The position numbers were made by a program, and so were the translations under genes. Under the pieces are notes generated by a model. The model was not told where the DNA came from and ran no database searches. It saw only the letters and a list, made by a program, of their open reading frames with translations. DNA of 64,000 bases, taken from Meghimatium bilineatum. Its lineage: Eukaryota > Mollusca > Gastropoda > Stylommatophora > Philomycidae. The DNA lies in contig CM067316.1 of NCBI GenBank assembly GCA_034231615.1, positions 61,775,353-61,839,352 on the forward strand, written 5' to 3'. Positions 8,711-59,425 of the stretch are shown piece by piece (position 1 is the first letter of the stretch; each line of letters opens with the position of its first letter).

Positions 8711-8977
8711 GGGAGCTGCATTGGCGCAGTGGTTAGCGCACTGTCTTTGCATATTAGTGGTCCTGGGTTCATTCCCCAGTTGAGGCGGAAATGTTTTTCA
8801 GATTGCAACAGCTCCCAGGTCGACCCAGCCTTAATTGGGTACCGGATTAATCCGGGAAGTAAAGACTACGAGGGAGAGGAGATGGCTACCGCCCTCATTT
8901 GCAGAGCCTCTGAAATGTGAGTACGCTAACATCTCACACCCCTACGGCATTAATAAATGATGTGAGCTACTTGACTT
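8711..8977 (+). mobile_element. tRNA-derived SINE with 12-bp target duplication
   Basis: TGGCGCAGTGGTTAGCGCACT-type A box and GGGTTCATTCCCC B box lie about 35 bp apart, as in a tRNA head. The body contains CAGGTCGACCCAGCC and AATTGGGTACCGG and may carry one of the conserved SINE central domains. The direct repeat TACAGGAATAAT flanks it at 8699-8710 and 8978-8989, so the insertion limits are well defined. Confidence 0.85.
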
Positions 8978-12165: not shown

Positions 12166-12412
12166 TCAGCAGCATCTGTGTTGACATATTTCTCGTGTGT
12201 ATTGTATATAGTCTAGAGAGGGTGGAATAGAACTCTGACCACTACTGTTATCTTGACTAGTGTTTAGAAACGTATCTGACATCGTATTTGTTTCAGATAC
12301 GTAAGAAATATATTCATTTATATTTGGTATACAACATGTATCAGCCCTTTCATTCGCCTGACTCTGTTCAGCTGAAGTTCTAGTATCAGCCCTTTCATTC
12401 AACAGACACATT
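12166..12412 (-). pseudogene. Out-of-frame distal tail of the receptor
   Basis: After the premature stop at 12413-12415, the frame used by the rest of the 45-bp array stays open for about 80 codons to a TGA at 12166-12168. It continues the 15-residue repeats ([15 protein letters not shown]) and then gives unique sequence with NEYISYV and SLDYIQYTREI. Because the array unit lacks 2 bp at 12420/12421 (CTGGTCC where neighbours have CTGGAGTCC), this distal coding piece is out of frame in the sequence as given. It may be a real truncating allele or a sequencing error. Confidence 0.7.
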
Positions 12413-13055
12413 TCAGCTGGTCCTAGTGTCAGCCCTTTCATTCAACAGACACATTTCAGCTGGAGTCCTAGTATCATCCCTTTCATTCACCTGACACAGT
12501 TCAGTTGAAGTCCTAGTATCATCCCTTTCATTCACCTGACACATTTCAGCTGGAGTCCTAGTGTCAGCCCTTTCATTCAACAGACACATTTCAGCTGGAG
12601 TCCTAGTATCATCCCTTTCATTCACCTGACGCAGTTCAGCTGGAGTCCTAGTATCAGCCCTTTCATTCACCTGACACATTTCAGCTGGAGTCATAGTATC
12701 ATCCCTTTCATTCACCTGACGCAGTTCAACTGGAGTCCTAGTATCAGCCCTTTCATTCACCTGACGCAGTTCAACTGGAGTTCTAGTATCAGCCCTTTCA
12801 TTCACCTGACGCAGTTCAGCTGGAGTCCTAGTATCAGCCCTTTCATTCACCTGACACATTTCAGCTGGAGTCCTAGTATCATCCATTTCATTCACCTGAC
12901 GCAGTTCAACTGGGGTCCTAGTATCAGCCCTTTCATTCACCTGACGCAGTTCAACTGGAGTCCTAGTATCAGTCCTTTCATTCATCTGACGCAGTTCAAC
13001 TGGAGTCCTAGTATCAGCCCTTTTATTTATCTGACGCAGTTCAACTGACGTTCTA
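12365..13055. repeat. Coding 45-bp minisatellite (15-residue unit)
   Basis: About 16-17 tandem 45-bp units on the minus strand encode [15 protein letters not shown], with A/V, R/D and LRQ/MCQ variants. The period is a multiple of three and the frame is maintained through about 15 units until the 2-bp shortfall at 12420/12421. Confidence 0.93.
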
Positions 13056-13987
13056 ATGTCACCAGTCACAGTTTCTACGTTATGACATAATAAAGTGGTC
13101 GTGGCTGGCGTTGCTATATCGACATTTTCAAATGTTCCAGAAAATGATGTTTCCGCCAGTTTGTCTCTATGTCTTGATTCAACATGGAAGCAACTGGTAT
13201 ATTCTTCTGTGTCTGCCTCCTCTTCAATGTCAATATTTCCTACAGGTATTTGTACATGAAACACAATAGCATTTAAAGGTGAAGAAATTATAAGTTGGGC
13301 TATTGGGAGCACAGGAAGTTCTGAAATACTTGAGTTATTTAGACCAAAAATTGTGTCTGACTCTTGTCCTGATGGCACATATTCATGATCTACGGAAGCA
13401 GACATTTGTCCCAACTGAAGGTATTCAGGATCTGTAGAAACAGACTCGTGTCCTGATGGCACATATTCGTGATCTACGGAAGCAGACATTTGTCCCAACT
13501 GAAGGTATTCAGGATCTGTAGAAACAGACTCGTGTCCTGATGGCACATATTCGTGATCTACGGAAGCAGACATTTGTCCCAACTGAAGGTATTCAGGATC
13601 TGTAGAAACAGACTCGTGTCCTGATGGCACATATTCGTGATCTACGGAAGCAGACATTTGTCCCAACTGAAGGTATTCAGGATCTGTAGAAACAGACTCA
13701 TGTCCTGATGGCACAGATTTGTGATCTCTGAGTGCATAAATTTGTCCCAATTGCATATATTCAGGATCTGTAGAAACAAACTCTTGTCCTGATTGCACAG
13801 ATTCAAGATTAATAGTTTGTTGCATACATTCAGAAGTAACACACTTCACCAGACATTTTATAGAAGTATCTGTGTCCTCTGTACTATTTTCCAACGTAAT
13901 TCGACTAGTAACCTCTGCCTGTGATGTTGCTATTATCCCAACTTCGTTTTCTTGGTGAAGATGTGCACGTGTTGTATTAACTACAGA
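12413..13987 (-). CDS. Receptor exon 17: cytoplasmic tail with tyrosine ladder
   Basis: Begins after TTTCAG at 13988-13993, in phase 0 with exon 16, and runs 524 codons to TGA at 12413-12415. Six copies of a 28-residue unit occur at the start. The first two are degenerate (ECMQ, EYMQL); the next four carry both EYLQL and HEYVPSG, so tyrosines fall at residues 888, 902, 916, 930, 944, 958, 972 and 986. A unique linker follows ([23 protein letters not shown]), then the 15-residue repeats. YLQL fits the Y-x-x-L class of SH2 docking sites; which partner binds is not known. The stop is probably premature (see the 12166-12412 entry). Confidence 0.85.
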   Translation of the reverse strand, partial: SVVNTTRAHLHQENEVGIIATSQAEVTSRITLENSTEDTDTSIKCLVKCVTSECMQQTINLESVQSGQEFVSTDPEYMQLGQIYALRDHKSVPSGHESVSTDPEYLQLGQMSASVDHEYVPSGHESVSTDPEYLQLGQMSASVDHEYVPSGHESVSTDPEYLQLGQMSASVDHEYVPSGHESVSTDPEYLQLGQMSASVDHEYVPSGQESDTIFGLNNSSISELPVLPIAQLIISSPLNAIVFHVQIPVGNIDIEEEADTEEYTSCFHVESRHRDKLAETSFSGTFENVDIATPATTTLLCHNVETVTGDIRTSVELRQINKRADTRTPVELRQMNERTDTRTPVELRQVNERADTRTPVELRQVNEMDDTRTPAEMCQVNERADTRTPAELRQVNERADTRTPVELRQVNERADTRTPVELRQVNERDDTMTPAEMCQVNERADTRTPAELRQVNERDDTRTPAEMCLLNERADTRTPAEMCQVNERDDTRTSTELCQVNERDDTRTPAEMCLLNERADTRTS

Positions 13988-16900: not shown

Positions 16901-19900
16901 TATTATTTTTTCATACCCATCGACGTCAGAGTCTGTCTGCTTCTTATCTTTTCTTTCCATGAAATGTTTCCTATTCTATATATCCACATCTCAATTCTGT
17001 CTTCAAGCAGTTTGATCATTACCCATGTTTCTGAACTATTCATTAAATGTAGAATAGATGTAACGCTTTATCATCCTCATGTTTATTGTGTGATTTGTTT
17101 GAATGGTAAATATTAAAACACCTAAAAAATATATACAGATCAGAGATTTAACCAAAATTTTGGTAGATTTAATTTACTTTAAAAGTGCCCCACTTGTCGT
17201 GTGTTCATGCTGAAATCATTTCTTACAGATTTACACGAGAGATATCAAACTTAAAAAATAGTATTTAGACACTACCTCAAGTTCTGTCACTGCTGTGTCT
17301 GATTCCAAGACAGACGTAGAATCACCAGAACTGTTGAAACTGTGGGCATTTGTTTTATACGAGCCAATAAACTGATAATCCATCTGTAAAGGGAGATAAT
17401 AACAATGTTAATGCTACTTGTGTCATTCTACGATTGTTGAACTCCAATATAATACCTATATTAACATATGGTTCTACGATTGTTGAACTCCAATATAATA
17501 CCTATATTAACATATGATTCTACGATTGTTGAACTCCATTATAATACCTATATTAACATATGATTCTACGATTGTTGAACTCCATTATAATACCTATATT
17601 AGCGTATGATTCTACGATTGTTGAACTCCAATATAATACCTATATTAACATATGATTCTACGATCACTCAGACGACAAAAAGTATATAAGGCCTAATTAG
17701 TGACAAACTAAAATCACATCAATAATCGAAAACATCGCGTAAGAAGGCTTATTCGCTTATTCTGCTGTGTTTAGATTTTGTTGTTAGGTCTTACGTGGCT
17801 AACGTTCGATGTGCAGAGAGGATAATCTTTCAACTAACAGTAGCAACATTTGAAACAGACTATACTAGTACGTACATAATATATGGTAGGACTTTTGAAA
17901 CAGACTATACTAGTACGTACATAACATCAATATCAATATATCAATAAAACCCATAACCCTTCAGGGTCGTAGGGGTACCACATTGGAAGCTTCTGCACAC
18001 AGAGTCCTCCAGCGAATTCTATCCTCAGCGATGCGGATGAGTGTGAAAATATCTAGCCCTGTCCATTCCTTGATGTTGTCTGTCCATGTCTTTATTTGTC
18101 CTCCTCTGCTTCTTCCACCCTCGACAGTTCCCTGCAGTATTGTTTTTGACAAGGAATCGTGCCTGCATACATGTCCGAACCATGCTAACCATGTACATAA
18201 CATATGGATCGTTGTAATCGACGATGACCAAAACTCAAACATAATAATAATAACAATAGGTAATAAAAAATTAATAAAGTTAATAGTGCGTTTTTAAATG
18301 ACTAACAAGTCCAATGCCCACACAAAATGTTCTTTTACAGAATTGACAACTGTAAAGGGTGTCTATGGGACGTTGAGATGTTTTTTCTCTTCTACGTGCC
18401 CGCTTCTGTCTTGCAGTATCTTGTCTGGTCTCTTCCGCCGCTAGTGCTCCCGTTCTAATGTTTAATGCCACGCTGTTATATCCTGAGCGAAGCTCTCCTA
18501 AGCGCCTACGTTAATGTTAAGATGTTTCAAGGACGACTTGAGCATGTCTTTGAAGCGCCATTTCTGTCCACCAGCTTTTCGAATTCCTGCCTTGAGTGCT
18601 CCATAATATATTTGTTTTGGCAAACGCGAGTTCTCCATACGCACAAGATGACTTGCCCAGCGTGCTTTCTCCTTCATAAGTATTGTGTAGATGCGTATTG
18701 AGGTTGATTTTATTAAGACCTCGTAGTCTGGTACTTTGTCCCACCAATGGATGTTTAGTAATTTATGTAGGCAGGTAAGATGGAAATCCTGTAAGTAAAG
18801 TGTAATCCTGACTACACGATATTAGAGAGTTCTGAACTAAACAACAGAGAAATAGGAAATGCAGAAATTCTAGCAGATGAAGTAAAAGATGCCATACGAA
18901 CACTGAAAGGAGGGAAGTCACCTGGTGTAGACAACATTCCAGCAGAATTGTTGAAAAACGGGGGGGGGGGGGGCTTAATGTGATAAATATTATGACCAAA
19001 ATATATGGAGCACAAAACAATGGCCCACTAATTGGACACAATCACTAATAATACCAATTCCCAAGTAAGGAAATTTGAAAGTGTGTACGAATTACAGAAC
19101 AATTAGCCTTATAACACACCCTAGTAAAGTGATGCTCAAAATACTACTGAACAGAATAAAACACAAGTCGGAAGAAATAATTGCATAAGAACAAGCTGGC
19201 TTCAGAGCAAACAGAAGCACCGTTGAACAAATATTTAACATCCGAACACTAATCGAAAAACATATTCAACACCAACGTGATCTATACCACAACTTCATTG
19301 ACTTTACAAAGGCCTTTGACCGTGTTTGGCATGATGGTCTGTGGCATATATTAGGCAATTTAATTTTGACAACACAATTATAGATATTATTGCAGCTCTG
19401 TACAAAAATGCAAACAGTGCTGGCTTGTCAAACAATACAATTGGAGAGTTCTTCAAAACAAATGTGGGAGCTCGACAGGGATGCATAATGTCCCCAGTAC
19501 TTTTCAAAATATACTTAGAGTACATAATGCAAAAGACATTACATGATTACAACACGTCTATATCGATCGGAGGTCGCCCTATTTGCAACTTGCGTTTCGC
19601 TGATGATATTGATCTTATAGCTGTGACAGAACAATCATTGCAAGAATTAACATCAAAGTTTGAAAAAGTTAACAGCAAGTACGGAATGGAAATCAATACA
19701 GATAAGAGCAAAATCTTGGTAAACAGCAGATATACAGAAAACCAGACTAATATCATGATGAATGGACATAAGCTTGAGGGGGTGAATACCTTCAAATACC
19801 TCGGATCCAGTATATGCAGCGATGGTAAATGCAAAGCAGAACTAAAAATAAGGCTGGAGATGGCTTTAGCTCCCTTGTCAAGGCTGTGATTTGGAAAAGC

Positions 19901-34900: not shown

Positions 34901-35654
34901 CACCAGTCGAGTGCCGCAGAGACATTGTCAACAATTATTACATTCGTAGGCTTCACAACATATTTTAGTAACATTGCTAGAATTATATGAAACGTCATGG
35001 CCTACAATGCGCTTGGCACCACAGCCAAATGTGTACGAGCTAAGACTATTGAATTATTTTTTCTTAATTCTGAAATTTAAAAAAAAAGGACATCTCATTT
35101 TGAAGAAATGTTGTCATACCTTAAGATACTTGAATTCACGAAACTCACACACCTTCTCTCATATACCTCCTCGCAAAAACCACATTCCACAAATATTACT
35201 TACCACTGAATGAGGTTGGTGAAACAACCAGAACAGAAGGTCGCAGGGAATAGCCCACCTCATTTTGTGCATAAATCTTGAGATATGACACGGAACTGCA
35301 TGGAAGTTCGACAACTGTTGAGTACACACCAGCTGCAACATTTATCGAACTTAGTTCCCTTACTTCGATGCGGTAACCGTTAATGACGCCATTTTGAGCT
35401 TCTTTATCAGCTTCCTATTGAACGAAAATATAACACTTATATTTGAGAGAAGTAGTATAAATGATTACACGTATACAGTGAAATCCCGTTATAACAACTT
35501 GATCGGGACTGACCAAATAAATATGCTATAACAGAAATTCGTTATATATAATACAATCAGTAATAAATAAATATAATTGGTAATTAAAAGGTGTTGTTAA
35601 ATAGGGAAGTTTGTGATAAAAGGATGCGCTTTAGAGGGATTCCAGTGTGTCATT

Positions 35655-35694
<40 letters not shown>

Positions 35695-41600: not shown

Positions 41601-41959
41601 ATATTTTCGTGAATGTGTCCAGGACAGAATCAAACATCCAGGCATGCTCGCGTCTGCACCAGCTTGAAGTTCTATGACAGGTTCAGGTTTTACTGAAACA
41701 GATTAACATTGTTTCCTCACTTAACTTTCATAACTGAAAAACAATATCAAGTAGATAATTTTACAATGTTGCATTTGTAAATACCCGTGGAAATGTAAGC
41801 AAGGGTTCTCAATATTTTCAGATGATTGGCACTCCCCCAAAAGTAATACTCAAGATAGTAGTAATAGTAGTGCGCAGTTTTCCGTCTTTCCACAAGATTT
41901 TTTTAATTGTTGTGCTATAAGAAATGTAATCTGTAATCCATGTTGTGCTATAAGAAATG

Positions 41960-42006
<47 letters not shown>

Positions 42007-44321: not shown

Positions 44322-44387
<66 letters not shown>

Positions 44388-53300: not shown

Positions 53301-56300
53301 AAGGTGGAATGGTAGGCCCGTTAACAAACATGACAGTAAGATAAAAGACTTCAGTAAAACAGAAGACACAAGTTAGACAGAAGACACAAGTAAACCATAA
53401 AACAAAACTTTGTTCCCTGTGACAATATAACCCACGATGAGAACCACTGCACTGCTGCACACAACACAAATATACGAATTGTTCTGAAATTTTGTGAACG
53501 TCAGACTTTGTGTGGACGAATTTTAGAATATCGTATTCAAAATGTATTCGCTTTATGTTACATAAGTCAGTTATTAAAAAGTAAATTCACAACATCGGCG
53601 ATTTCCTACGTTGTGCATCTCGCTCTGTTGTCTTAGTTTGACACCCATTTATATATCTGGATGGTCTAGAGGATGACCGCCCAGAGATTCACACCCACAC
53701 ACTGTGATAATAGAGGAATTTTTGTTGCTGTGAAGACACAATGTCTTGTCGTGTTGAGTATACCATAATTGTTGGTGCGCCTCTTGACCTGGTATCTCCG
53801 ACATTAGCACTTGTGCTTGGATGGGCAGGACTGTAGTTCTGCTCGATGTATAGGATGGTACAATCAATCTTAGTTTCTAGCCTCTGCTGGCCGAACTGAG
53901 CCCTATCTAGCCTCTGCTGGCCGAACTGAGCCCTATCTAGCCTCTGCTGGCCGAACTGAGCCCTAACTAGCCTCTGCTGGCCGAACTAAGTCCTATCTAG
54001 CCTCTGCTGGCCGAACTGAGCCCTATCTAGCCTCTGCTGGCCGAACTGAGCCCTATCTAGCCTCTGCTGGCCGAACTGAACTCTATCTAGCCTCTGCTGG
54101 CCGAACTGAGCCCTATCTAGCCTCTGCTGGCCGAACTGAGCCCTATCTTCCATTTAAGGAGTTGAACTCGATAGCCTTATAAAGGGGTACAACCTCAGTC
54201 TATGGGATCAACCTAACTGACTAGAGATATGGGGGCTGGGGGCAACCAATGGCAACAGAGCAATAAGTCCACTTTGCTAATACACCATCATGAGATTCCT
54301 GCAGACGACACAAAATACAAGAAAACAAATATGTAATATGCTTCTTACAGATCAGAAAGCAGCATCGCCTCAATGCTAGACCAGAAAAAATAATGTCTAG
54401 TAATTTAATTATTTTTAACCGAAGCCATTGTTATATAATATACACTGATCCCAAAGTTAGAAAAATACCGCAGAAAACAAGCTATCTCAGCCATGCTGCA
54501 TAGTATGGTACTACCAAGTGATAAGGAAGAAATTATTACACCACAAATTATATGTTACTAGAAGAGAACCTTGTTGTCCGCCAGCAATGTCTGATGTTAG
54601 ACAATATTTCACAATAGTCGGACATTACAAGTTTCTTAATGTAGAGAAAAACTATCGGCCGTTGACGACAACGATCACGATGTCCGATGTCACCTCAAAT
54701 GAGCTAACCAAAACAATTTCCTTGCGTCATTCTACACGGAGAGTGTTAATTTTAGCCTACTCACCCATCTACTCGCCCACCTATTCACCTATCTACTCAC
54801 CCATCCACTTACACATCCTCTCACACATCCACTCACACATCCACTCACCCATCCACTCACACATACACTCACCCATCCACTCACCCATCCACTCACCCAT
54901 CCACTCACACATACACTCACACATCCACTCACACATACACTCACACATCCACTCACACATACACTCACACATCCACTCACACATACACTCACACATACAC
55001 TCACACATCCACTCACCCATCCACTCACACATCCACTTACACATCCACTCACACATCCACTCACACATACACTCACACATCCACTCACACATACACTCAC
55101 ACATCCACTCACACATCCACTTACACATCCACTTACACATCCACTCACACATCCACTCACACATTCACTCACACATCCACTCATCCATGCACTCACACAC
55201 CAACTCACACATCCACCCACACATCCACTCTCACATTCACTCACACATCCACGCATACATCCACCCACACATTCACTCACACACACACACACCCACTCAC
55301 ACATAAACTCACACACTCACTCACACATTCACTCACACATCGACTCACACATCCACTCATTCATCCACTCACTCACACACCCACTCACAAATTCACTCAC
55401 CCATCCACTCACACATCCACTCGCCCATCCACTCACACATCCACTCACACACACACATCCACTCACACACACACATCCACTCACATATCCACTCACCATC
55501 ATCCACTCACCATCATCCACTCACCATCATCCACTCACCATCATCCACTCACCAACATCCACTCACCAACATCCACTCACCATCATCCACTCACCATCAT
55601 CCACTCACCCATCCACTCACCATCATCCACTCACCATCATACACTCACCATCATCCACTCACCATCATCCACTCACACATCCACTCACACATACACTCAC
55701 ACATCCACCCACCCATCCACACACACATACACTCACACATACACCCACCCATCCACACACACATACACTCACACATCCACCCACCCATCCACACACACAT
55801 ACACTCACACATCCACCCACCCATCCACACACCCATCCACTCACACATCCACTCACACACTCACACATCCACTCACACACTCACACATCCACTCACACAC
55901 TCACACATCCACCCACCCATCCACTCACCCATCCACTCACACATCCACTCACACTCACACATCCACTCACACATCCACTCACACATCCACTCACACATCC
56001 ACTCACACATCCACTCACACTCACACATCCACTCACACATAAAAGTGACCCAATAATGTTCAAAATAATCCAGTTCACATTTGATGAATACTCACAATCA
56101 ACTATGACGTCATTAGCAAAACCAACCACACCCATATTTGGGTTGACACTGCCTTCCAACCCGAGACCATCTGCTACAACACACGTGTACTGTCCTGCAT
56201 CGTTCACAGTCACATTGCGAACAGTAACCATTGCCGCTGTTAAGTTTATAACCGCCATGCTGGACATAGGCAAGAGCTTGCTAACACTGTTCAACTATTA

Positions 56301-59300
56301 CAGATATATAAACATCATTTAATTGTAAGATATATCCACTGTGGTAAAAGTAACAGTCAACTACAATGTACATCACGACTTTTATAGCACATAGGGGATT
56401 GGTGGGGGGGGGGGCTGCCTATTAATTATCCCAGCGATTAAGGGCGGGTGTATGAAAAGTCTGAGGTCGACAAAAGTCGCCGTGAACAAAACTGTGTTGT
56501 ATACAACAATTACATAAATTTTAGAAAAAATTCTAAAATAAGAAAAACTCCATTAAAAAAAAATACTCTCTTTCTGCCCCAAAAATTATTACGTTTTGGG
56601 AGGGGCGGGGGTATGGAACTCTGCTTTCAATCTCAATAGGTGGAGTTCTGAAATCATATGCAAGTTTTTATTTCGGTGGTTGGGGGGCGGGGGGAATTGA
56701 CCCCAAAATTTGTTGACGTAACCTATGAGCAGTTCCCCCTCTCCCTCCCCCAAGGATACGTTACCATTAACACAGCATTTTTGGCTGTGATGATTTTCTA
56801 GGCAATATAAATACGCTCAGTAGTTTGCTATTACTTTCCGAACTGTCCTGATGCACAGCTGCATGCGGCGGGATTTCATTCCAGTATCTTGGCCGTCATA
56901 GGCGCTGTCGGGGTCCAAAGGGTACCGCATTGCTCTCGCGAACCCAGGGTTAGCAGATAACCATTTGGAGATCGTGTCCCTGAATGTGGAGGTAGCAGAT
57001 GGAAAAATATTTGACTGCAAAAAGACGGGCAATATCTCCGACACCTCTACGCCAACACATGCAGCAACACTGTCGACACATATTGAGGCTAGTCAGTTCG
57101 ACAGAACATTAGCGGGGCGGCCAAGGCAGATGTTACTAAGTAGGCAGATGTTACGAAGTGGGCAGATGTTACGATAACTATTAAGAACCGGTGTGTCAGT
57201 CACCATAAGGATTGTATACTGAGTACACTGAGTGGACAGTGCGGAACTAGAGGGCATCGTCATGTGCAAAGAGAACTAGAAAACGTTTCAAAGAAATCGG
57301 AACTTCAGTTTTGTAAGCTCGAGGCAAGCTTCTAGAGTTTTTCCTATACCATGCTCGCGGAGAAAAAAGGTTCAGTGCCCGACTGGTTCAGGCACAACCG
57401 TGCAAGCCGTGCTAGTCACAAATGTAAATACACATGTCAAACATGAGATGTAATACAAATGTCAAACATGACATGTAAAACAAATGTCAAACATGACATG
57501 TAATACAAATGTCAAACATGATTTGGAATACAAATGTCAAACATGACATGTAATACAAATGTCAAACATGACTTGGAATACAAATGTCAAACATGGCATG
57601 TAATACAAATGTCGAAATACGATTACCTTTAGCGGTTCTGAGAAATTGAATGTTATGTTTTTAGAAGAGTAATTTTTTCGATGTTCTTCATCCAGACTAC
57701 AGGTAAGCTTGAGATCATCCCCAATATACAGGCATGTATCACCTGTTACTAAGGTAGACAGCGTACCTGTGGAAAAGGTAAACTGTAGGCCTAAGCTTAA
57801 ATGATATATATAAACCCTATATTAATTACACAGTGAGACAACACTTATTAACTGTGACTTAACTGTGACTTAACTGTGACTTAACTGTGACTTAACTGTG
57901 CATTTACCTGATGGTCGTTGTGTAACTCCATGTGGCTACCGGAGCATGGACTCATGGACTCGGAGTGCATAGAACATGGCCACTGTCTTCTTTCCAAGCA
58001 TGTCGTAGGAAGAGTTTAAAGAAAGTTGGGCGTTAGGCTGATAACCTGTTACCTATGATAGGCTGATAACCTGTCACCTATGATAGGCTGATAACCTGTC
58101 ACCTATGATAGGCTCATAACCTGTCACCTAAGTTAGGCTGATTACCTGTCACCTATGATAGGCTGATTACCTGTCACCTATGATAGGCTCATAACCTGTC
58201 ACCAATGATAGGCTGATAACCTGTCGACTATGATAAGCTGATAACCTGTTATATATTACAGGCTGATAAAATGTTACATATGATAAGCTGATAACCTGTC
58301 ACATATGATAAGCTGACAACATGACACATATGATAAGCTGATAACTTGTCACATATGATAAGCTGACAGCCTGTCACATATAATAAGCTGATAACCTGTC
58401 ACATATGATTAGCTGATAACCTGTCACCTATACAATTATTGTCACGGTATATCTTGTCCCAATTTCTGACATATGTTTGCTTTCTTATTAATTCACACGT
58501 TGCCCCAGGTAGTGACTGGACTATGTGTCTCGGTAGTTCACACGTTGCCTAACATAGTGACTGGACTATGTGTCTCGATAATTCACACGTTGTCTCAAGT
58601 AGGGACTGGACTATGTGTCTCGATAATTCACACGTTGTCTCAAGTAGGGACTGGACTATGTGTCTCGATAATTCACACGTTGTCTCAAGTAGGGACTGGA
58701 CTATGTGTCTCGATAATTCACAAGTTGCCTCAAGTAGGGACTGGACTATGTGTCTCGATAATTCACAAGTTGCCTCAAGTAGGGATTGGACTATGTGTCT
58801 CGATAATTCACAAGTTGCCTCAAGTAGGGATTGGACTATGTGTCTCGGTAATTTCCCCTAACCTTCTTTCTGACCGTGTGTTAAGACGCAAAATGTCATC
58901 ACCAGCATCATCAACACAATCACCATTATCGTCACCATCATCGTAACCATCCTCATCACCATCATCATCACCGCCATCATCACCGTCATCATCACCATGA
59001 CCATCACAATGACCATCATCATCAACACAATCACCATCCACAGAATAAGTTACCTAATCATATGCCTAACCTCCTTAGTCGTCTTGTGCAAAAAACATCA
59101 CAAGTCATAGTTTTAACATCGTTGCTTCTCCTTCGATTACCTGCAATCCACATATGAACTGAATGTCTTTATTTCTGATTTCCTAATCAATAAAAAAGAA
59201 TTTCAAAAACTTACTAAGCAAAGACTGAACATTGTTAAAAGTGTCTTTCTCCACTGGTAGGGAAGATGGCACAGGCTCTGGTGTGGATACAGCCAGTGTA

Positions 59301-59425
59301 TTCTCTATTGTTAAAGGAGAACATGTAATCTCTTCTGCAACAGCTTTCGGTGTACTCCGTACCATCACAGAAGAAGATAGTAGTAGATGTACGCAGATAA
59401 TGTTGATGTAAGCGGTGACCCTCAT
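12413..59425 (-). CDS. gp130-like class I cytokine receptor (17 exons, joined gene)
   Basis: My hand-assembled join of 17 exons, all GT-AG with closing split codons, gives about 1307 residues. Layout: signal peptide 1-24; Ig-like domain about 75-180 (C93, D149-x-G-x-Y153-x-C155); cytokine-receptor D1 184-283 with C194, C205-S-W207, C236 and C244; D2 284-384 ending in WSDPS at 370-374; fibronectin III domains about 385-483, 484-592 and 593-703; transmembrane helix about 708-730; cytoplasmic tail 731-1307. The family binds helical cytokines at the cell surface and signals through JAK and STAT; that function is inferred from the family. The order matches vertebrate gp130/LIFR and is richer than a minimal receptor. 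No clear Box 1 proline motif was found after the membrane. No promoter element was identified. A non-coding first exon is possible, since CACTTCAG precedes position 59436. Confidence 0.85.
13366..13790. repeat. Coding 84-bp minisatellite (28-residue unit)
   Basis: Four nearly identical 84-bp units plus diverged outer copies. Each encodes [14 protein letters not shown] and [14 protein letters not shown] on the minus strand. The near-identity at DNA level implies recent amplification or homogenisation. Confidence 0.93.
14337..15193 (-). mobile_element. LINE family A, truncated RT fragment
   Basis: Matches the intact element at 45897-46725 in the same orientation, with the [16 protein letters not shown] block, [17 protein letters not shown] and [10 protein letters not shown]. 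It carries small internal duplications (TTAGTATAGG twice; ATATTTGAA repeated) and stops. Both ends are truncated: the 3'-most 115 bp of the element are missing here but are found at 10092-10205. Confidence 0.9.
15295..15420. repeat. 33-bp tandem repeat, probably LINE-derived
   Basis: CTTGTAATCTTTTCATTTCT and ACATGATCTC recur three times. A single copy of the same block occurs at 24553-24625, followed by the same TTTCTTAG-CATCTCATTTCACAC sequence. Confidence 0.8.
15609..15775 (+). repeat. Dispersed repeat, copy 2
   Basis: Second copy of the block at 6381-6552. The frame here is open for about 50 codons ([16 protein letters not shown]), but the other copy is full of stops in that frame. Confidence 0.6.
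15800..15870 (-). mobile_element. LINE family C, 3'-end remnant
   Basis: CATCACAAGTCATGATGACC matches the family C 3' end near 61676 (CATCACAAGTGATGATGACC). Confidence 0.55.
15871..16439. other. Unassigned DNA
   Basis: Purine-rich and AT-rich segments with an AATAATTTAATAGT-type degenerate repeat near 16150-16230. No gene is recognised. Confidence 0.4.
16440..17075 (-). mobile_element. LINE 3' fragment, antisense to plus
   Basis: The minus strand reads [20 protein letters not shown] and IGNISWKEK, then degenerate coding, and ends at TCTTCTACCCCTGACGATGT. That 3' end is shared with 51368-51390. Coding is broken by stops and frameshifts. Confidence 0.75.
17276..17383 (-). CDS. Receptor exon 16: juxtamembrane cytoplasmic
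   Basis: 108 bp, phase 0 to 0, acceptor CTTTACAG and donor GAG|GTAGTG. Encodes residues 748-783, beginning [10 protein letters not shown] and ending DTAVTELE. It has two tyrosines (Y750, Y756) and a Ser/Thr-rich acidic stretch. Assignment rests on splice sites and phase. A proline-based Box 1 is not visible in it. Confidence 0.65.
17429..17664. repeat. 46-bp minisatellite 45 bp upstream of exon 16
   Basis: About five copies containing TTCTACGATTGTTGAACTCC and ATACCTATATTAACATATG. The array lies in the acceptor-side intron flank of exon 16. Confidence 0.93.
17928..18192 (-). mobile_element. LINE family B, 5'-truncated insertion with TSD
   Basis: Antisense copy of the last 250 bp of family B (GGGTCGTAGGGGTACCAC, CTCCAGCGAATTCTATCCTC). 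The direct repeat GTACATAACAT flanks it at 17917-17927 and 18193-18203, defining a target-primed insertion. It landed next to the 3' end of the family C copy. Confidence 0.88.
18204..18776 (-). mobile_element. LINE family C, 3' portion
   Basis: The minus strand reads [39 protein letters not shown] and [10 protein letters not shown]. After a break it continues with [15 protein letters not shown] and a terminal C2H2-like finger [21 protein letters not shown]. This is the usual C-terminus of one class of non-LTR retrotransposon. The ATCGTCGATTACAACGAT 3' end follows. It joins in frame to 20300-20470 across the family B insertion. Confidence 0.85.
18788..20299 (+). mobile_element. LINE family B, 5'-truncated insertion with 11-bp TSD
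   Basis: Reverse transcriptase remnant: [20 protein letters not shown] finger, [11 protein letters not shown] (after an in-frame stop), [43 protein letters not shown] (the FADD catalytic motif) and [14 protein letters not shown], then a frameshifted thumb and a 3' end with CCTACGACCATGAAGGGTTT and ATTGATTGAT. A long poly-G run near 18960 interrupts the 5' part. AAGATGGAAAT flanks it at 18777-18787 and 20300-20310. It is inactive: several frameshifts and stops, and no endonuclease. Confidence 0.92.
20300..20470 (-). mobile_element. LINE family C, upstream portion
   Basis: The minus strand reads [39 protein letters not shown] and, with a frame change, GKLNHFHL. That last block continues directly into the 18776 end as [19 protein letters not shown] once one copy of AAGATGGAAAT is removed. 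It is therefore the same element as 18204-18776, split by family B. Confidence 0.85.
20634..20917. repeat. 21-bp minisatellite
   Basis: About 13 copies of TAGATGTTTATATTGTGATT plus A or C. The plus frame is open only because the period is a multiple of three. Confidence 0.95.
20925..21130 (+). mobile_element. LINE fragment related to family C
   Basis: The plus strand reads [19 protein letters not shown] and then, in another frame, [20 protein letters not shown] and [11 protein letters not shown]. This is the block that precedes the finger in family C. It is frameshifted and truncated. Confidence 0.75.
21543..21591 (-). CDS. Receptor exon 15: basic juxtamembrane segment
   Basis: A 49-bp exon with acceptor GTTCACAG and donor GTG|GTATGT. 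It completes the AG|A split codon from exon 14 and encodes [16 protein letters not shown] (residues 732-747), a basic stop-transfer segment directly after the membrane helix. Phase and chemistry both fit. It is short, so some doubt remains. Confidence 0.7.
21650..23300. other. Intronic stretch with a GC-richer island, unassigned
   Basis: No coding domain is recognised. From about 22370 to 22620 the base composition is richer in C and G, with CCGGGGACTCT repeated and a perfect 9-bp hairpin ACTTGTCTC/GAGACAAGT at 22385-22393 and 22400-22408. The piece from 22100 to 22850 reads like a non-coding mobile element, but I found no second copy or terminal repeats. Confidence 0.4.
23624..23830. repeat. 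GAT/GATGAT simple-sequence tract
   Basis: Degenerate GATGATAATGATGA sequence open in both directions. It lies about 100 bp from exon 14 on the donor side. Confidence 0.85.
23929..24010 (-). CDS. Receptor exon 14: transmembrane helix
   Basis: 82 bp, acceptor CTTCTTACAG and donor AG|GTGAGT. Encodes [20 protein letters not shown] then AIVIVVYR (residues 704-731), an uninterrupted hydrophobic helix of about 23 residues followed by the basic exon 15. A separate phase 1 to phase 2 exon for the membrane helix is usual in this receptor class. Confidence 0.88.
24112..24256 (-). mobile_element. LINE family B, decayed 3' fragments
   Basis: GTAGGGGTACCACATTCGAC and TGCTTCTTCCACCCTCGAC match two blocks of the antisense family B 3' end, with the sequence between them diverged or deleted. 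Confidence 0.6.
25093..25150. repeat. 15-bp repeat, four copies
   Basis: GCCGTCAGAACTGT is repeated in tandem. A single related block occurs at 24733-24750 (TGCCGTCAGAACGGACTGGT), so the flanking 300 bp may be a diverged duplication of 24690-25010. Confidence 0.8.
25299..25397. mobile_element. Pogo-like MITE, internally deleted copy
   Basis: CAGTCCAACC at one end and GAGGGACTCCACTA at the other, with internal AAATATAATTGGGATTTTGA shared with 27118-27293 and 35476-35647. TA precedes the left end. Confidence 0.65.
25724..25909 (-). CDS. Receptor exon 13: second half of last FNIII domain
   Basis: 186 bp, acceptor TTTATTTCAG and donor GCAG|GTTTGC. Encodes about residues 642-703, starting [20 protein letters not shown] and including [20 protein letters not shown], the F-G strand region of a fibronectin III fold. 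It ends with the membrane-proximal stalk. Phase 1 on both sides. Confidence 0.85.
25995..26757. repeat. 20-bp minisatellite with duplicated flank
   Basis: About 36 copies of ATACATAGTAGGTATAGTTT. At 26187-26250 the array is interrupted by a second copy of the unique sequence that precedes it (AAAATATACGTTTRCTAATT, TGTGTAAACATAT), so array and flank were duplicated together. Confidence 0.95.
26948..27094 (-). CDS. Receptor exon 12: first half of last FNIII domain
   Basis: 147 bp, acceptor CGCAAACAG and donor AAGG|GTAAGT. Encodes about residues 593-641, beginning [20 protein letters not shown] and including SWDATW and [20 protein letters not shown]. This matches the A-C strands of a fibronectin III domain with the conserved core Trp. 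A MITE end lies 23 bp upstream of the acceptor. Confidence 0.87.
27118..27293. mobile_element. Pogo-like MITE beside exon 12
   Basis: CAGTTAAATCTCATTATAAC at the left end and GAGAAATTTCACTG at the right end form imperfect terminal inverted repeats, flanked by TA on the left. CAGTG...GTTATAAC ends are typical of pogo/Tigger-derived non-autonomous elements of the Tc1/mariner superfamily. Confidence 0.75.
27370..27900 (+). repeat. Dispersed repeat family F, copy 1
   Basis: Shared blocks: ACTGTCTTCTTTCCA and GAAAAGTTGGG with 57975-58030; ATGGATGRCGRAGAGATGC and CAGAAGAATGATGTACTAG with 44570-44705. The 85-codon and shorter frames inside it have no domain. Probably a non-coding interspersed element. 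Confidence 0.7.
28262..28545 (+). mobile_element. LINE 3' fragment
   Basis: The open frame reads [36 protein letters not shown] and [18 protein letters not shown], the post-RT tail of a non-LTR retrotransposon. It is shared with 10948-11092, where the ending CGTCACATGACA also occurs. 5'-truncated. Confidence 0.82.
28546..29360. other. Unassigned intronic DNA
   Basis: AT-rich, with no gene or repeat recognised. Confidence 0.4.
29367..29538. repeat. 19-bp minisatellite
   Basis: About nine copies of GGTACCAAACTGCAATAAG, each with a KpnI-type GGTACC palindrome except one GGTGCC copy. Confidence 0.95.
29594..29888. repeat. 17-bp minisatellite
   Basis: About 17 copies of AACAGATAAATATCTCC, with AATAGAT variants. 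It starts only about 55 bp after the 19-bp array ends. Confidence 0.95.
30100..30640. repeat. 39/40-bp minisatellite running into exon 11
   Basis: About six good copies with GTGTGACAATTTTGCATGGA and AAAGCACGATTGTAGA (30100-30360), then increasingly degenerate units (AGAGTGTGACAA, GACAAGTCTGCATAGAG) up to about 8 bp from the exon 11 donor. Confidence 0.88.
30648..30813 (-). CDS. Receptor exon 11: second half of middle FNIII domain
   Basis: 166 bp, acceptor TGTACACAG and donor CCTC|GTGAGT. Encodes about residues 538-592, [20 protein letters not shown] through [20 protein letters not shown] and SQCLFK. The YxxGIS...W..C pattern resembles the membrane-proximal fibronectin domains of gp130 and LIFR. 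The degenerate minisatellite abuts the donor. Confidence 0.88.
30880..33100. repeat. 21-bp minisatellite, about 105 copies, with higher-order structure
   Basis: Unit GTGTGTATGTATGTAAATTA plus T. The variants GTGTGTGTATG and ATGTATGTATG occur in a fixed order in blocks near 31450-31545, 31905-32000, 32128-32215 and 32490-32545. The first units (30880-31020) are an AAATATAT variant. All plus-strand frames are repeat artefacts. Confidence 0.97.
33182..33312. repeat. (GT)n microsatellite with GCGTGT interruptions
   Basis: Alternating purine-pyrimidine tract of about 130 bp (GTGTGC repeated), a candidate Z-DNA former. Confidence 0.95.
33394..33575. repeat. 20-bp minisatellite
   Basis: About nine copies of ATCATGGTTGAAAAGTTATC. 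A GTTGACAAGTTAT variant recurs every third unit, a three-unit higher-order period. Confidence 0.93.
33880..34140. repeat. About 41-bp minisatellite abutting exon 10
   Basis: Six copies with ACATTATGACCAAATATCAT and GTGTTTCACACAT. The array ends about 9 bp before the exon 10 donor. A diverged single copy lies near 33705-33740. Confidence 0.88.
34149..34309 (-). CDS. Receptor exon 10: first half of middle FNIII domain
   Basis: 161 bp, acceptor TTATGTTGCAG and donor AAT|GTAAGA. Encodes about residues 484-537, [20 protein letters not shown] through [20 protein letters not shown] and [10 protein letters not shown]. The L-x-L-x-W core and the YTIFWC...C pair match the corresponding domain of gp130-type receptors. 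Minisatellite sequence begins just beyond the donor. Confidence 0.88.
34400..34960 (-). mobile_element. LINE remnant with RNase H domain
   Basis: The minus strand reads [38 protein letters not shown] and, after a break, [20 protein letters not shown]. These fit the RNase H DSQ and NERAD motifs carried by I/R1-type non-LTR retrotransposons. Stops and a frame change show decay. Confidence 0.75.
35204..35414 (-). CDS. Receptor exon 9: FNIII domain following the CHR
   Basis: 211 bp, acceptor GTTCAATAG and donor AGTG|GTAAGT. Encodes about residues 414-483, [20 protein letters not shown] through [20 protein letters not shown] and [19 protein letters not shown] and the YxxNxxGYS segment are standard fibronectin III C and F-G strands. 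Confidence 0.9.
35476..35647. mobile_element. Pogo-like MITE
   Basis: CAGTGAAATCCCGTTATAAC at the left end, preceded by TA, and GAGGGATTCCAGTG at the right. The internal sequence matches 27118-27293 and 25299-25397. Confidence 0.75.
35659..35692. repeat. (AT)n microsatellite
   Basis: Perfect AT dinucleotide run. It sits at the 3' end of the adjacent antisense LINE and may be its tail. Confidence 0.95.
35693..36553 (-). mobile_element. LINE family B, truncated antisense copy
   Basis: Matches 19515-20290 in reverse: [13 protein letters not shown] RT palm (the FADD becomes FAND here), FKx[62 protein letters not shown]. Better preserved in the thumb than the copy at 18788. Degraded at both ends; not functional. 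Confidence 0.9.
36554..37150. other. Unassigned intronic DNA
   Basis: AT-rich, with no gene or clear repeat. A short (AT)n lies near 36560. Confidence 0.4.
37160..37285. repeat. 27-bp minisatellite
   Basis: About five copies of GAAGACAAAAGTAAGACATT plus TGATAGA or TGAGAGA. Confidence 0.92.
37378..37565. repeat. 40-bp minisatellite with hairpin in each unit
   Basis: About five copies. Each contains TGTGTGGTCAAACCACACA, an 8-bp stem with a 3-base loop, followed by ACCACGTGCAGTCATATAAT. The last unit loses the second arm. Confidence 0.93.
37566..38159. other. Unassigned intronic DNA
   Basis: Downstream of exon 8 on the minus strand. No gene or repeat copy was identified. Confidence 0.4.
38160..38248 (-). 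CDS. Receptor exon 8: start of first post-CHR FNIII domain
   Basis: 89 bp, acceptor CTAAATAG and donor CAA|GTAAGG. Closes a G|CT split codon and encodes about residues 384-413, [20 protein letters not shown] then [10 protein letters not shown], the A-B strands ending in the core Trp of a fibronectin III domain completed by exon 9. Confidence 0.85.
38836..39490. repeat. 24-bp minisatellite
   Basis: About 27 copies of ATTACATTTTAAATTAGTTA plus TATT, with 15-bp deletion variants. Extremely AT-rich. Confidence 0.96.
39520..39950 (+). mobile_element. LINE 3' end
   Basis: [40 protein letters not shown] and [17 protein letters not shown] are post-RT sequence. After a frameshift come CCGGAAAGATCAAGTGGAGA, ACCAACTGAACTTCTCAACA and a (TTGA)n-like tail at 39920-39945. 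The same family as 10760-12060. Confidence 0.82.
39980..40133 (-). CDS. Receptor exon 7: CHR D2 second half with WSDPS
   Basis: 154 bp, acceptor TTATGACAG and donor TCAG|GTGAGG. Encodes residues 333-383, [40 protein letters not shown] and [21 protein letters not shown] is the F strand before the WSXWS site, and WSDPS (370-374) stands in the WSXWS position with Trp to Pro at the fourth place. Only the most exon-proximal of three tandem acceptor copies gives an open frame; the upstream ones would bring in TGA. Confidence 0.88.
40116..40290. repeat. 54-bp minisatellite containing the exon 7 acceptor
   Basis: Three copies with GTTATCTGTTAGAATCTGTC and GTCGTCAAATAAAGTGATG. The unit includes the first coding bases and the AG acceptor of exon 7, so the splice acceptor is present three times. 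Confidence 0.93.
40455..40560. repeat. 35-bp repeat, three copies
   Basis: AAATTTACAATCTGCTATAG and CCTTGTTACAAATAA are tandemly triplicated. Confidence 0.93.
40735..41185. repeat. About 31-bp minisatellite
   Basis: About 15 degenerate copies with GTTTCCAGTAATTATCATTA and CTTCATTATCT. Several units contain near-palindromic GTAATTATCATTAC. Confidence 0.9.
41236..41430. repeat. 31/32-bp minisatellite near exon 6
   Basis: Six copies with CATTTTAGTATTACTGGGTA and AATGTAAAGTCC. Lies 117 bp from the exon 6 donor. Confidence 0.93.
41547..41692 (-). CDS. Receptor exon 6: CHR D2 first half
   Basis: 146 bp, acceptor TCTGTTTCAG and donor GAT|GTAAGT. Closes a G|TA split codon and encodes about residues 284-332, [20 protein letters not shown] then [28 protein letters not shown] and the L-x-L-x-W core are the usual start of the second cytokine-receptor domain. 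Confidence 0.9.
41930..42245. repeat. Degenerate 33-bp repeat with (AT)n insert
   Basis: ATGTTGTGCTATAAGAAATG and TAATCTATAATCC recur about eight times. An (AT)n run of about 45 bp lies at 41960-42004. Confidence 0.85.
42246..42667. other. Unassigned unique sequence before the 30-bp array
   Basis: The plus frame entering the array is open from 42360 and would give a hydrophobic N-terminus ([19 protein letters not shown]). It has no acceptable gene context and I regard it as chance or a decayed repeat. Confidence 0.35.
42668..43700. repeat. 30-bp minisatellite, about 34 copies
   Basis: Unit CATACATCAGTGTTGGTGAC plus TTTGTCCTAC, with substitutions but almost no length change. Three reading frames stay open across it (two plus, one minus). 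Plus-frame translation has the period [10 protein letters not shown]. No splice context or domain supports coding. Confidence 0.95.
44046..44320 (+). mobile_element. tRNA-derived SINE with (AT)n tail
   Basis: CCTAGCGCAATGGTTAAG resembles an A box and ATAAGTTCGAATCCAGC contains a perfect GTTCGAATCC B box, spaced as in a tRNA. A 200-bp body follows and ends in TTGAATAAATTATTACTACC. An (AT)n run at 44325-44385 follows. Confidence 0.82.
44440..44800 (+). repeat. Dispersed repeat family F, copy 2
   Basis: CGCCATGGATGGCGAAGAGA, CAGAAGAATGATGTACTAGT and GATAATCCCGGGATACTGCC match 27596-27870. Better conserved than the 27-kb copy in its 3' half. Confidence 0.7.
44880..45080. repeat. Poly-G run and about 57-bp triplicate
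   Basis: A run of about 12 G occurs at 44882-44894. TGCTCACAGCTAAMGAAATT and ACTTCATCATCATCATGTGC then recur about three times to 45080. Confidence 0.85.
45588..45762. repeat. 16-bp repeat, left side of LINE target
   Basis: ATCTATACGATTAGTT repeats about ten times. The same array resumes at 49059-49112, so the family A LINE inserted into it. Confidence 0.92.
45763..49058 (-). mobile_element. Apparently full-length RTE-like LINE (family A)
   Basis: 3.3 kb with a single long frame, a 5' leader of about 360 bp (49058-48696), almost no 3' UTR and a TGATGATGATGATGA tail. AAATTATCTAT at 45752-45762 and 49059-49069 can be read as a target-site duplication; the target is itself repetitive, so this is less decisive than at family B. 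One apurinic-type endonuclease plus RT with a trinucleotide tail fits the RTE clade. Confidence 0.88.
45774..48695 (-). CDS. LINE endonuclease/reverse transcriptase, intact 973 codons
   Basis: This protein nicks target DNA and copies the element RNA at the nick. Endonuclease motifs in order: [10 protein letters not shown] (N41), GMSEMRW (E70), [21 protein letters not shown] motifs: [55 protein letters not shown] and [13 protein letters not shown] with the catalytic YADD near residue 718. The C-terminal part has [24 protein letters not shown] and [12 protein letters not shown]. No internal stop or frameshift is seen over 973 codons, so it may be recently active. The TGA stop is the first unit of the 3' (TGA)n tail. 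It lies in intron 5 of the receptor, in the same orientation. The start ATG used is the first in frame; a later ATG at residue 21 or 24 is possible. Confidence 0.93.
49059..49112. repeat. 16-bp repeat, right side of LINE target
   Basis: ATCTATACGATTAGTT, about three copies; continuation of 45588-45762. Confidence 0.9.
49113..49654. other. Unassigned intronic DNA
   Basis: No gene or clear repeat. Confidence 0.4.
49655..49960. repeat. 52-bp minisatellite (two 26-bp halves)
   Basis: ATGAAGGAACAAAACTTGAA alternates with ATGAAGGAAGAAACATAATT, each followed by TGA-rich filler; about five double units. Confidence 0.92.
50324..50487 (-). CDS. Receptor exon 5: CHR D1 second half
   Basis: 164 bp, acceptor GTTGTCTAG and donor ATTG|GTTAGT. 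Closes an AG|T split codon and encodes residues 229-283, [39 protein letters not shown] and [14 protein letters not shown]236 and C244-L-W246 supply the second conserved disulphide pair of the domain. Confidence 0.9.
50488..51349. other. Unassigned intronic DNA
   Basis: No coding domain is recognised. The minus-strand frame at 51003-51191 includes [16 protein letters not shown], which recalls the reverse transcriptase of Penelope-like or tyrosine-recombinase elements, but it is too short to call. Confidence 0.35.
51350..51367. repeat. Interstitial telomere-like (TTAGGG)3
   Basis: Three perfect TTAGGG units, immediately next to the 3' end of an antisense LINE fragment. Confidence 0.9.
51368..51650 (-). 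mobile_element. LINE 3' fragment ending on telomere-like repeat
   Basis: The open frame reads [59 protein letters not shown]. The 3' end TTCTACCCCTGACGCTGT is shared with 16440. 5'-truncated. Confidence 0.8.
52270..52405 (-). CDS. Receptor exon 4: CHR D1 first half
   Basis: 136 bp, acceptor TCAATGCCAG and donor TGAG|GTAAGA. Closes a T|AT split codon and encodes residues 184-228, [20 protein letters not shown] then [16 protein letters not shown]194-x10-C205-S-W207 and the NW pair are the diagnostic start of a class I cytokine-receptor domain. This exon is the strongest single piece of evidence for the family. Confidence 0.92.
52640..52950 (+). mobile_element. LINE family B fragment carrying a 27-bp minisatellite
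   Basis: ATACCTTATAATGCACCC, GAATAAAGCACAAGCTGGAA and ATATTTAACATTAGAATATT match 19105-19285. Inside it, GAACAAGCTGGCTTCAGAGC plus AAACAGA is repeated about five times (52743-52870). That DNA encodes EQAGFRANR, a conserved RT motif present once in the parent element. Confidence 0.88.
53649..53870 (-). other. Unrecognised 72-codon frame
   Basis: Open frame [20 protein letters not shown] with [19 protein letters not shown] and HPLDHPDI. Its composition is less biased than the chance frames around it. No domain is recognised and no splice sites tie it to the receptor. It could be a decayed mobile-element protein. Confidence 0.25.
53871..54150. repeat. 30-bp minisatellite, nine copies
   Basis: TAGCCTCTGCTGGCCGAACT plus GAGCCCTATC, nearly perfect. 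GC-rich for this window. Confidence 0.95.
54151..54764. other. Unassigned intronic DNA
   Basis: No gene or repeat recognised. Confidence 0.4.
54765..56045. repeat. 12-bp minisatellite, about 100 copies, near exon 3
   Basis: Unit CACACATCCACT with ACACATACACTC, CACCATCATCCACT and CCACCCACCCAT variants. It ends about 50 bp from the exon 3 donor. The long open frames on both strands are repeat artefacts. Confidence 0.96.
56096..56294 (-). CDS. Receptor exon 3: Ig-like domain second half
   Basis: 199 bp, acceptor ATCTGTAATAG and donor GATT|GTGAGT. Encodes residues 118-183, [40 protein letters not shown] and [27 protein letters not shown] is the D-x-G-x-Y-x-C signature of an Ig F strand. Phase 0 in, phase 1 out. 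Confidence 0.92.
56295..56816. other. Unassigned intronic DNA
   Basis: Contains poly-G runs near 56405 and 56685. No gene is recognised. Confidence 0.4.
56817..57110 (-). other. Unrecognised frame of about 90 codons
   Basis: Open minus frame containing [40 protein letters not shown] and [15 protein letters not shown]. It has balanced composition and is probably part of a mobile-element protein. I do not recognise the family, and it is not spliced into the receptor as far as I can see. Confidence 0.3.
57425..57615. repeat. 25-bp minisatellite abutting exon 2
   Basis: About eight copies of ATACAAATGTCAAACATGAC plus ATGTA. It ends about 11 bp before the exon 2 donor. Confidence 0.94.
57627..57766 (-). 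CDS. Receptor exon 2: Ig-like domain first half
   Basis: 140 bp, acceptor CTTTTCCACAG and donor AAAG|GTAATC. Closes an A|GT split codon and encodes residues 71-117, [38 protein letters not shown] and [17 protein letters not shown] is the Ig B strand; C93 would pair with C155 in exon 3. Confidence 0.88.
57845..57903. repeat. 11-bp repeat
   Basis: TTAACTGTGAC repeated about five times. Confidence 0.93.
57930..58470 (+). repeat. Dispersed repeat family F, copy 3, with 25-bp array
   Basis: ACTGTCTTCTTTCCAAGCAT and AAGAAAGTTGGG match 27438-27490. From 58035 to 58432 about 16 copies of GATAGGCTGATAACCTGTCA follow. Copy 1 has only two related units there (CTGACAACCAGTCATC, TGACAGCCAGTCATC). Both then resume with the TGTC...CTTGTC block. 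Confidence 0.78.
58495..58858. repeat. 45-bp minisatellite
   Basis: About eight copies with ACTGGACTATGTGTCTCGAT and TCACACGTTGTCTCAAGTAG. Two plus frames stay open because the period is a multiple of three. Confidence 0.94.
58895..59040. repeat. CATCAC/CATCAT simple sequence
   Basis: Degenerate CAT-based tract about 175 bp from the exon 1 donor. Confidence 0.88.
59215..59425 (-). CDS. Receptor exon 1: signal peptide and N-terminus
   Basis: ATG at 59425-59423, donor CTTA|GTAAGT at 59214-59213. Encodes residues 1-70, [24 protein letters not shown] then a Pro/Ser/Thr-rich stretch ([14 protein letters not shown]). The n- and h-regions fit a cleavable signal peptide of about 24 residues. A possible 3' splice site CACTTCAG just upstream of 59436 suggests that the 5' leader may begin in another exon. 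Confidence 0.82.

Follow-up and report, generated by a model that had tools for sequence, protein, structure and literature searches.

According to the extract of PMC10746620 used here, gp130 (IL6ST) is built of an Ig domain, the cytokine-receptor pair D2-D3, three FN3 domains, a helix and a long tail, in that order. The extract of PMC13203501 traces IL6R homologues from Mollusca on, and describes IL6R and gp130 as normally comprising an Ig domain, an IL6R domain, 3-4 FN3 domains, a transmembrane segment and a tail. A gp130-like gene has been described in the sea squirt Ciona (PMC1963337), and among invertebrate class I receptors, Domeless and Latran carry a cytokine-binding module, with three FN3 domains in Dome as in GP130 (PMC2914635). 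As far as the latter extract goes, these two form a duplicated pair of one signalling and one non-signalling member, and share a region of about 200 aa that is absent from vertebrate receptors. For the sea urchin, the statement in the extract of PMC3296744 that there is no cytokine receptor system stands against PMC13203501. The extracts of PMC13203501 and PMC1963337 mention neither a four-copy set of such receptors nor chains lacking Box1.

The gene described here, gene A, lies in the window, which is the whole stretch of 64,000 nucleotides that was analysed and is part of contig C19 in the assembly that was searched (1.61 Gb, 32 contigs). It runs on the minus strand from 59425 to 12413 and, as a chain of 17 exons, encodes 1289 aa (Table 1). 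To rebuild the chain, splice sites and open frames were combined with the residues named in a preliminary description of the locus; the result agrees with that description letter for letter and in all numbers. All 16 introns are GT-AG with compatible phases, no exon except the last exceeds 211 bp, and residues C194, C205-S-W207, C236, C244-L-W246 and WSDPS at 370-374 are all reproduced; two elements, E16 (17383-17326) and the acceptor at 13980, were not confirmed by the comparison with paralogues given below. By a simple score, the acceptors fall within the best 0.5-17% of all AG on the minus strand and the donors within the best 0.1-13% of all GT.

A phase-1 intron is present at all six domain borders (Ig/D2, D2/D3, D3/D4, D4/D5, D5/D6 and D6/helix), and each outer domain is made of two exons. 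The cytokine pair D2-D3 is spread over four exons with phases 1-2-1-0-1, which we take to be the pattern of vertebrate class I receptors. In GP130 and the Ciona gp130-like gene the pair is split in a largely conserved manner, whereas the module of Drosophila dome lies in a single exon, as described in the extract of PMC1963337. If the animal is a protostome, the many-exon gp130-like module would predate the split between protostomes and deuterostomes, and the single-exon dome module would be derived.

Gene A very probably codes for a single-pass cell-surface receptor that belongs to the gp130-like group (group 2) of class I cytokine receptors, a reading drawn from its sequence and that of its copies. 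By analogy with the class, D2-D3 (with D1) would bind a helical cytokine and D4-D6 would set the geometry of the dimer.

Table 1. Exons of gene A, features of its tail, and the other copies. Positions are those of the window unless a contig is given.
Feature	Position	Strand	Details
E1: start codon, signal peptide, linker	59215..59425	-	211 bp, ends phase 1; hydropathy 1.72 at residues 3-4
E2: Ig domain, first half	57627..57766	-	140 bp, phase 1->0; B copy 45% identical
E3: Ig domain, second half	56096..56294	-	199 bp, phase 0->1; Pfam ig 1.6e-6 for E2+E3
E4: D2 first half, C194-x10-C205-S-W207	52270..52405	-	136 bp, phase 1->2
E5: D2 second half, C236-x7-C244-L-W246	50324..50487	-	164 bp, phase 2->1
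E6: D3 first half, PGCLILSW	41547..41692	-	146 bp, phase 1->0
E7: D3 second half, WSDPS 370-374	39980..40133	-	154 bp, phase 0->1
E8: FN3 D4 first half	38160..38248	-	89 bp, phase 1->0
E9: FN3 D4 second half	35204..35414	-	211 bp, phase 0->1
E10: putative FN3 D5 first half, NYTIFWCE	34149..34309	-	161 bp, phase 1->0
E11: putative FN3 D5 second half	30648..30813	-	166 bp, phase 0->1
E12: FN3 D6 first half	26948..27094	-	147 bp, phase 1->1
E13: FN3 D6 second half	25724..25909	-	186 bp, phase 1->1; fn3 3.1e-6 for E12+E13
E14: single transmembrane helix	23929..24010	-	82 bp, phase 1->2; hydropathy 2.78 at 711
E15: basic juxtamembrane exon	21543..21591	-	49 bp, phase 2->0
E16 of the preliminary description: not supported, at most an alternative exon	17326..17383	-	0.12 occurrences expected by chance in Markov-resampled sequence
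Last exon, revised start 13987, cytoplasmic tail	12413..13987	-	phase 0; acceptor ...gatgtttcag; 524 codons + stop
84-bp tandem array, 28-aa unit, two tyrosines (EYLQL, EYVPS)	13359..13804	-	
45-bp tandem array, 15-aa unit	12338..13047	-	
Open stretch in another frame, non-repetitive past the array	12169..12441	-	INEYISYVSETN...SLDYIQYTREICQHRCC
Copy B	C19:61.72-61.76 Mb	opposite to A	tail to tail with A
Copy C	C19:61.998-62.045 Mb	-	
Copy D	C18:32.268-32.297 Mb		

Homology of the extracellular part

When D2-D3 was compared with the PDB, the best match was gp130 (E 1.7e-6, residues 8-192 of 201); gp130 or G-CSFR made up all nine rows at E <= 0.0025, and gp130, G-CSFR or CNTFR made up 12 of the 14 rows at E <= 10. 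The reversed D2-D3 sequence, used as a control, returned no receptor among its five rows (best E 0.54). A profile of the pair from four copies, in whose alignment copy B was entered without its E5, returned class I receptors in 14 of 14 rows at E <= 0.18 and in 21 of 26 at E <= 1, with gp130 at 3.1e-7, IL-23R at 2.4e-5, G-CSFR at 4.6e-4 and the prolactin receptor at 0.019. The other five rows were a kinase, a hypothetical protein, two DCC rows and a ribosomal protein. By sequence, gene A is closest to gp130, IL-23R and G-CSFR, with gp130 as the best match.

D4 alone (E8+E9) also gave gp130 first against the PDB (9.1e-4, 9 of 17 rows), in a match that sums two stretches (D4 and D6 of gp130), each insignificant; DSCAML1 came next at 0.0016 with one stretch. 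D1 matched Ig domains of FGFR, neuronal growth regulator and titin. Among longer pieces compared with structures, the 520-aa D2-D6 piece gave gp130 only at E 0.008, the 660-aa Ig-to-helix piece listed FGFR and other Ig proteins first with gp130 at 0.011, and D4-D6 as one piece returned no cytokine receptor in its three rows. With Pfam, an 859-aa piece of the model matched fn3 at 1.5e-8 and the separate pieces matched Ig (1.6e-6), fn3 in D4 (0.0043) and fn3 in D6 (3.1e-6); D2 alone matched only a bacterial family (0.001), and D3 alone had no Pfam match. D5 alone gave nothing related in the PDB and no Pfam match, and its pattern and paralogues suggest an FN3 domain. The outer part contains 18 N-glycosylation sequons against 8.9 expected from composition, and the tail five against 4.8.

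The chain could also be read as an Ig/FN3 adhesion-type protein, like DSCAM, contactin, RPTP or a netrin receptor, that shows the C/W pattern by chance. The Ig matches of D1 and the DSCAML1 match of D4, about as good as that of gp130, are consistent with such a protein, but the match of D2-D3 is specific to class I receptors and covers the pair from one end to the other, generic FN3 proteins appear in the D2-D3 and four-copy profile searches only at E >= 0.5, and C-x10-C-[ST]-W is kept in all four copies in the pair alignment. We find the adhesion-type reading barely credible. A profile search had been proposed in the preliminary description as a check on the C/W pattern; Ig and fn3 were matched, and the pair was placed within class I receptors in every row at E <= 0.18. 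The accompanying label of gp130/LIFR type is borne out for gp130, the best match, and its LIFR half reflects membership of the same group, Pfam LIFR_D4 being matched in two of the four copies (best E 4e-4).

The class I definition in PMC1963337, as given in its extract, was compared with gene A motif by motif. C-x(9-10)-C-x-W is present at C194 to W207 with a spacing of x10, W-x(26-32)-C is present as W207-x28-C236, and the pair matches class I receptors from end to end. The second cysteine pair, C-x(10-15)-C in the definition, is C236-x7-C244; the x7 spacing recurs in copies C and D, B is without the first cysteine, and the gp130 chains in the D2-D3 alignments have x7 (7z0l) and x9 (8upa), so that the range fails gp130 too. 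In place of WSxWS, described in the same extract as slightly variable, as in GHR, gene A has WSDPS; WSDP is found in A, C and D and PSDP in B. An Ig domain, the cytokine pair and FN3 domains precede one membrane helix, so the order of Ig, cytokine pair, three FN3 domains, one helix and long tail first proposed for the gene stands, as a group 2 class I ectodomain. No credible Box1 (PxP or PxxPxP near the membrane, PMC7444064) was found in gene A, a result that depends on the exon model, and the pYxxQ STAT3 docking motif of group 2 occurs in none of the tails of A, B and C.

Because the second cysteine spacing, WSxWS and Box1 fail the strict definition, we class gene A with the diverged variants rather than with gp130 itself, as one that appears to descend with the class I receptors known outside vertebrates. 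That this receptor class exists there, as the preliminary description stated with reference to Drosophila Domeless and related receptors, agrees with the extracts of PMC1963337, PMC2914635 and PMC13203501. The differences from gp130 are WSDPS, the lack of a credible Box1, the lack of YxxQ and tyrosines coded by repeats. Gene A is likened to Domeless and Latran by their descriptions, and the IL6R-like receptors of Mollusca and the gp130-like receptor of Ciona are likened to the copies by description only, within the extracts cited.

Copies in the genome

The genome-wide search for copies, with E1 left out of the query, gave 51 matches at E <= 10, of which 15 fell in A, 11 in B, 12 in C, 11 in D and two elsewhere. 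Copies A, B and C are clustered on C19 in a span of some 325 kb, and D lies on C18. In copy B, within the neighbouring 70 kb, E2-E4 and E6-E13 are all matched in the order of gene A, with identities of 37-66% and E values from 6e-18 to 6e-6; E1, which was within that query, had no match there. Given this recurrence in order, gene A is, as judged from sequence, more than a chance chain of exons. The E5 of copy B was located in a search with the E5 of copy D (E 0.026) and from splice sites, and has the same length as in A (164 bp).

Exon lengths were largely kept. E7 (154 bp) and E11 (166 bp) are equal in all four copies, E8 (89 bp) is equal in A, B and D, and E6 is 146 bp in A, C and D and 143 bp in B; the E6 and E7 of C are second-ranked candidates. 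E4 is 142-145 bp and E9 208-211 bp in the copies, E5 is 155 bp in C and 158 bp in D, E10 is 164 bp in D, and in C E3 is 196 bp (phases imposed) and E13 165 bp. The E8 of C and the E12 and E13 of D were not placed. The phases of the model were imposed in the exon scans of C and D, where phase agreement is partly built in, and most sites of copy B were listed without a phase condition.

Across 320-510 aligned codons of placed exons, dN was 0.42-0.49 and dS 1.45-3.0 in all six pairs; the four copies appear to be old and under purifying selection, with dS near saturation. A decaying pseudogene of the receptor family would be expected to show defects such as the frame shift in the last repeat array and the lack of a credible Box1 described below. 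E1-E15 of gene A are nevertheless open with good splice sites, many exon lengths are kept in the copies, and dN/dS is 0.16-0.28 in the three pairs with A, although a pairwise ratio says nothing of constraint on A's own branch. Decay of gene A is considered very unlikely.

None of the 7988 candidates scored from 5.8 billion predicted proteins matched the joined receptor at E <= 0.01. This is indirectly in keeping with the earlier expectation that ORF-based annotation would miss the gene.

Inner exons and cytoplasmic tail

A scan for the membrane exon after D6, with phase 1->2 and hydropathy imposed, left a single candidate in each of B, C and D; in A, the E14 already proposed came first of three. 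The E15 of copy B is KCLSRRRAVKRLTTNL (49 bp), a counterpart weak by sequence (E 2.3, then 0.051 in another search), and those of C, NCIKGRKKTTTLATLSRM (55 bp), and D, KFQRRGMMFRDMRND (46 bp), were each picked from several candidates by site score. In Markov-resampled sequence, an exon like E15 of gene A would be expected 0.02 times. A last exon that appears to continue from E15 in phase 0 was found in B (319 codons, acceptor 7.4) and in C (263 codons, acceptor 7.1), the scan in B having covered phase-0 starts only; for D no last exon or tail was found in the sequence examined.

In B and C no exon seems to intervene between E15 and the phase-0 last exon, and the last exon of gene A therefore probably starts at 13987, where a phase-0 acceptor outscores that at 13980 (6.8 vs 6.2). 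With this acceptor, E16 and the 13980 acceptor are unneeded, and the revised protein would be 747 + 524 = 1271 aa. The chain might yet be right as first drawn, with E16 perhaps belonging to an alternative transcript, as the sites of E16 are good (acceptor top 1.1%, donor top 7.9%) and its phases compatible. We regard this as quite improbable, given the apparent direct passage from E15 to the last exon in B and C, the stronger acceptor at 13987 and the occurrence of an E16-like exon in 12 of 100 Markov-resampled sequences; no counterpart of E16 was seen in copies B or C. The paralogues thus appear to support E2-E13, the membrane exon and E15, and not E16.

The tail of gene A, as modelled from 13987, contains two tandem arrays. 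Near 12415 a unit of the 45-bp array is two bases short, which puts the stop at 12413, while another frame runs on to 12169; this open stretch is a possible natural C-terminus of the gene, and its earlier designation as complete is doubtful. In the gene frame, the 84-bp array shows six silent and 14 replacement changes and the 45-bp array 15 silent and 64 replacement changes. Neither array shows a bias to silent change in that frame: under neutrality about one change in four would be silent, and both values lie near that. The arrays therefore do not prove coding. They sit in a repeat-rich neighbourhood: the window has 110 tandem-repeat rows (overlapping ones counted) with a wide choice of periods; units of 15 bp, for example, fill 2.5 kb at 702-3204, and units of 21 bp fill 2.2 kb at 30880-33093.

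A 226-aa piece of the A tail, used as query, barely aligned with the tails of B and C (best E 0.32 and 0.021 in single comparisons). Its tyrosines lie in EYLQL (four), EYMQL (one) and EYVPS (four); the tail of C has AYLQI near its end and that of B has YTRL and YTKL, so that YxxL is present in the A and B tails. In the extract of PMC7444064, pYxxL is a STAT5-type and pYxxQ a STAT3-type site. The tail of copy B (L016:62-1021) ends in DDYVKY. In that of copy C (L057) there is a 27-bp repeat (RPHTNVSTQ), and the chain stops shortly past AYLQI.

The last exon of copy B has at its start, directly behind the basic exon, a Box1 of the PxxPxP form, TPTAPAMPAPS. The modelled tails of gene A and copy C yielded no credible Box1. 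Between the membrane exon and the last exon of gene A, 24 open phase-2 exons with PxP were found in a scan that took phase-2 exons with any GT-AG and other phases only under site thresholds. They were rejected, as none of the 24 is matched in the copies and the majority are antisense LINE sequence, hydrophobic or flanked by poor splice sites. The nearest lookalike, WLTPYPAE at 23415-23312, has a weak donor.

Signalling components and genome context

The preliminary description called the gene a signalling receptor, a term stronger than the sequence supports, as the chain as modelled has no credible Box1, WSDPS for WSxWS and C-x7-C. In a receptor of this class, JAK-phosphorylated tail tyrosines in YxxL or YLQ[LI] would dock STATs. 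As gene A showed no credible Box1, we tentatively suggest that it may be one chain of a complex in which a partner with Box1, such as B, supplies JAK; this is the least certain step of the reading. Recruitment of JAK by gene A itself through an unrecognised motif is considered slightly less likely.

Gene A could instead be a ligand-binding or dampening receptor without signalling, as Latran is to Domeless in the extract of PMC2914635. Besides this precedent, such a role would fit the lack of a credible Box1 near the membrane in A, while B has TPTAPAMPAPS, as well as the tail repeats without constraint and the frame shift near the end of A. Yet the A tail is long with its frame kept open, and YxxL motifs recur in it. 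The tail of C is also without PxP, and group 5 receptors lack a canonical Box1 (PMC7444064, in extract); absence may therefore mean a changed motif and not loss. A non-signalling role is likewise viewed with some doubt.

A broader scheme, which we consider unlikely, is a multi-chain gp130-type system that an invertebrate lineage built independently of vertebrates. Chain B, with Box1, and chains A and C, without it, would share a diverged ectodomain family of four copies; the tasks of recruiting JAK and docking STATs would be split among the chains, and last-exon minisatellites, two arrays in A and the 27-bp repeat in C, would let individuals differ in the number of docking sites in the tail. 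At this invertebrate locus, heteromeric cytokine receptors may have had an origin separate from the vertebrate one, and gene A offers a test of whether a chain without Box1 can join JAK-STAT signalling.

STAT_bind exons were found above the cut-off at two loci of the assembly. For JAK, the FERM_F2 profile gave no match in the assembly and was also silent in the control genomes, and the Jak1_Phl profile gave one sub-threshold match in a low-complexity frame (E 0.115) with no control genome positive; both are narrow family probes and cannot exclude JAK. Of the tyrosine-kinase matches listed, the best four are split evenly between C18 and C19, the contigs that carry receptor copy D and copies A-C respectively. 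This placement could reflect an old duplication of these chromosomes.

A COX1 fragment at C2:121989805-121990428, inside a 122-Mb contig, would be a nuclear copy or an assembly join. It is open under the invertebrate mitochondrial code, with six AGA/AGG codons that are stops under the vertebrate code, and its best named hit is Octopus vulgaris (78%), with flies (77%) and a sea anemone (76%) about equally near. The earlier impression of an invertebrate-like genome is thinly supported by this fragment.

Within the window, an ORF of 1011 aa at 45774-48809 on the minus strand encodes the endonuclease and reverse transcriptase domains of a LINE, presumably RTE-like, and has 784 relatives at E <= 1e-20. 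LINE-like fragments are also present in introns of gene A at 14577-15215 (-), 19335-19889 (+) and 35824-36246 (-). An Rfam tRNA match of 34.9 bits at 8715-8787 (+), which was not called by ARAGORN, is perhaps a tRNA-derived repeat. Elsewhere in the assembly, C9:41.90-42.04 Mb has dozens of fn3 matches over about 140 kb on one strand, with the look of a titin- or twitchin-type gene.
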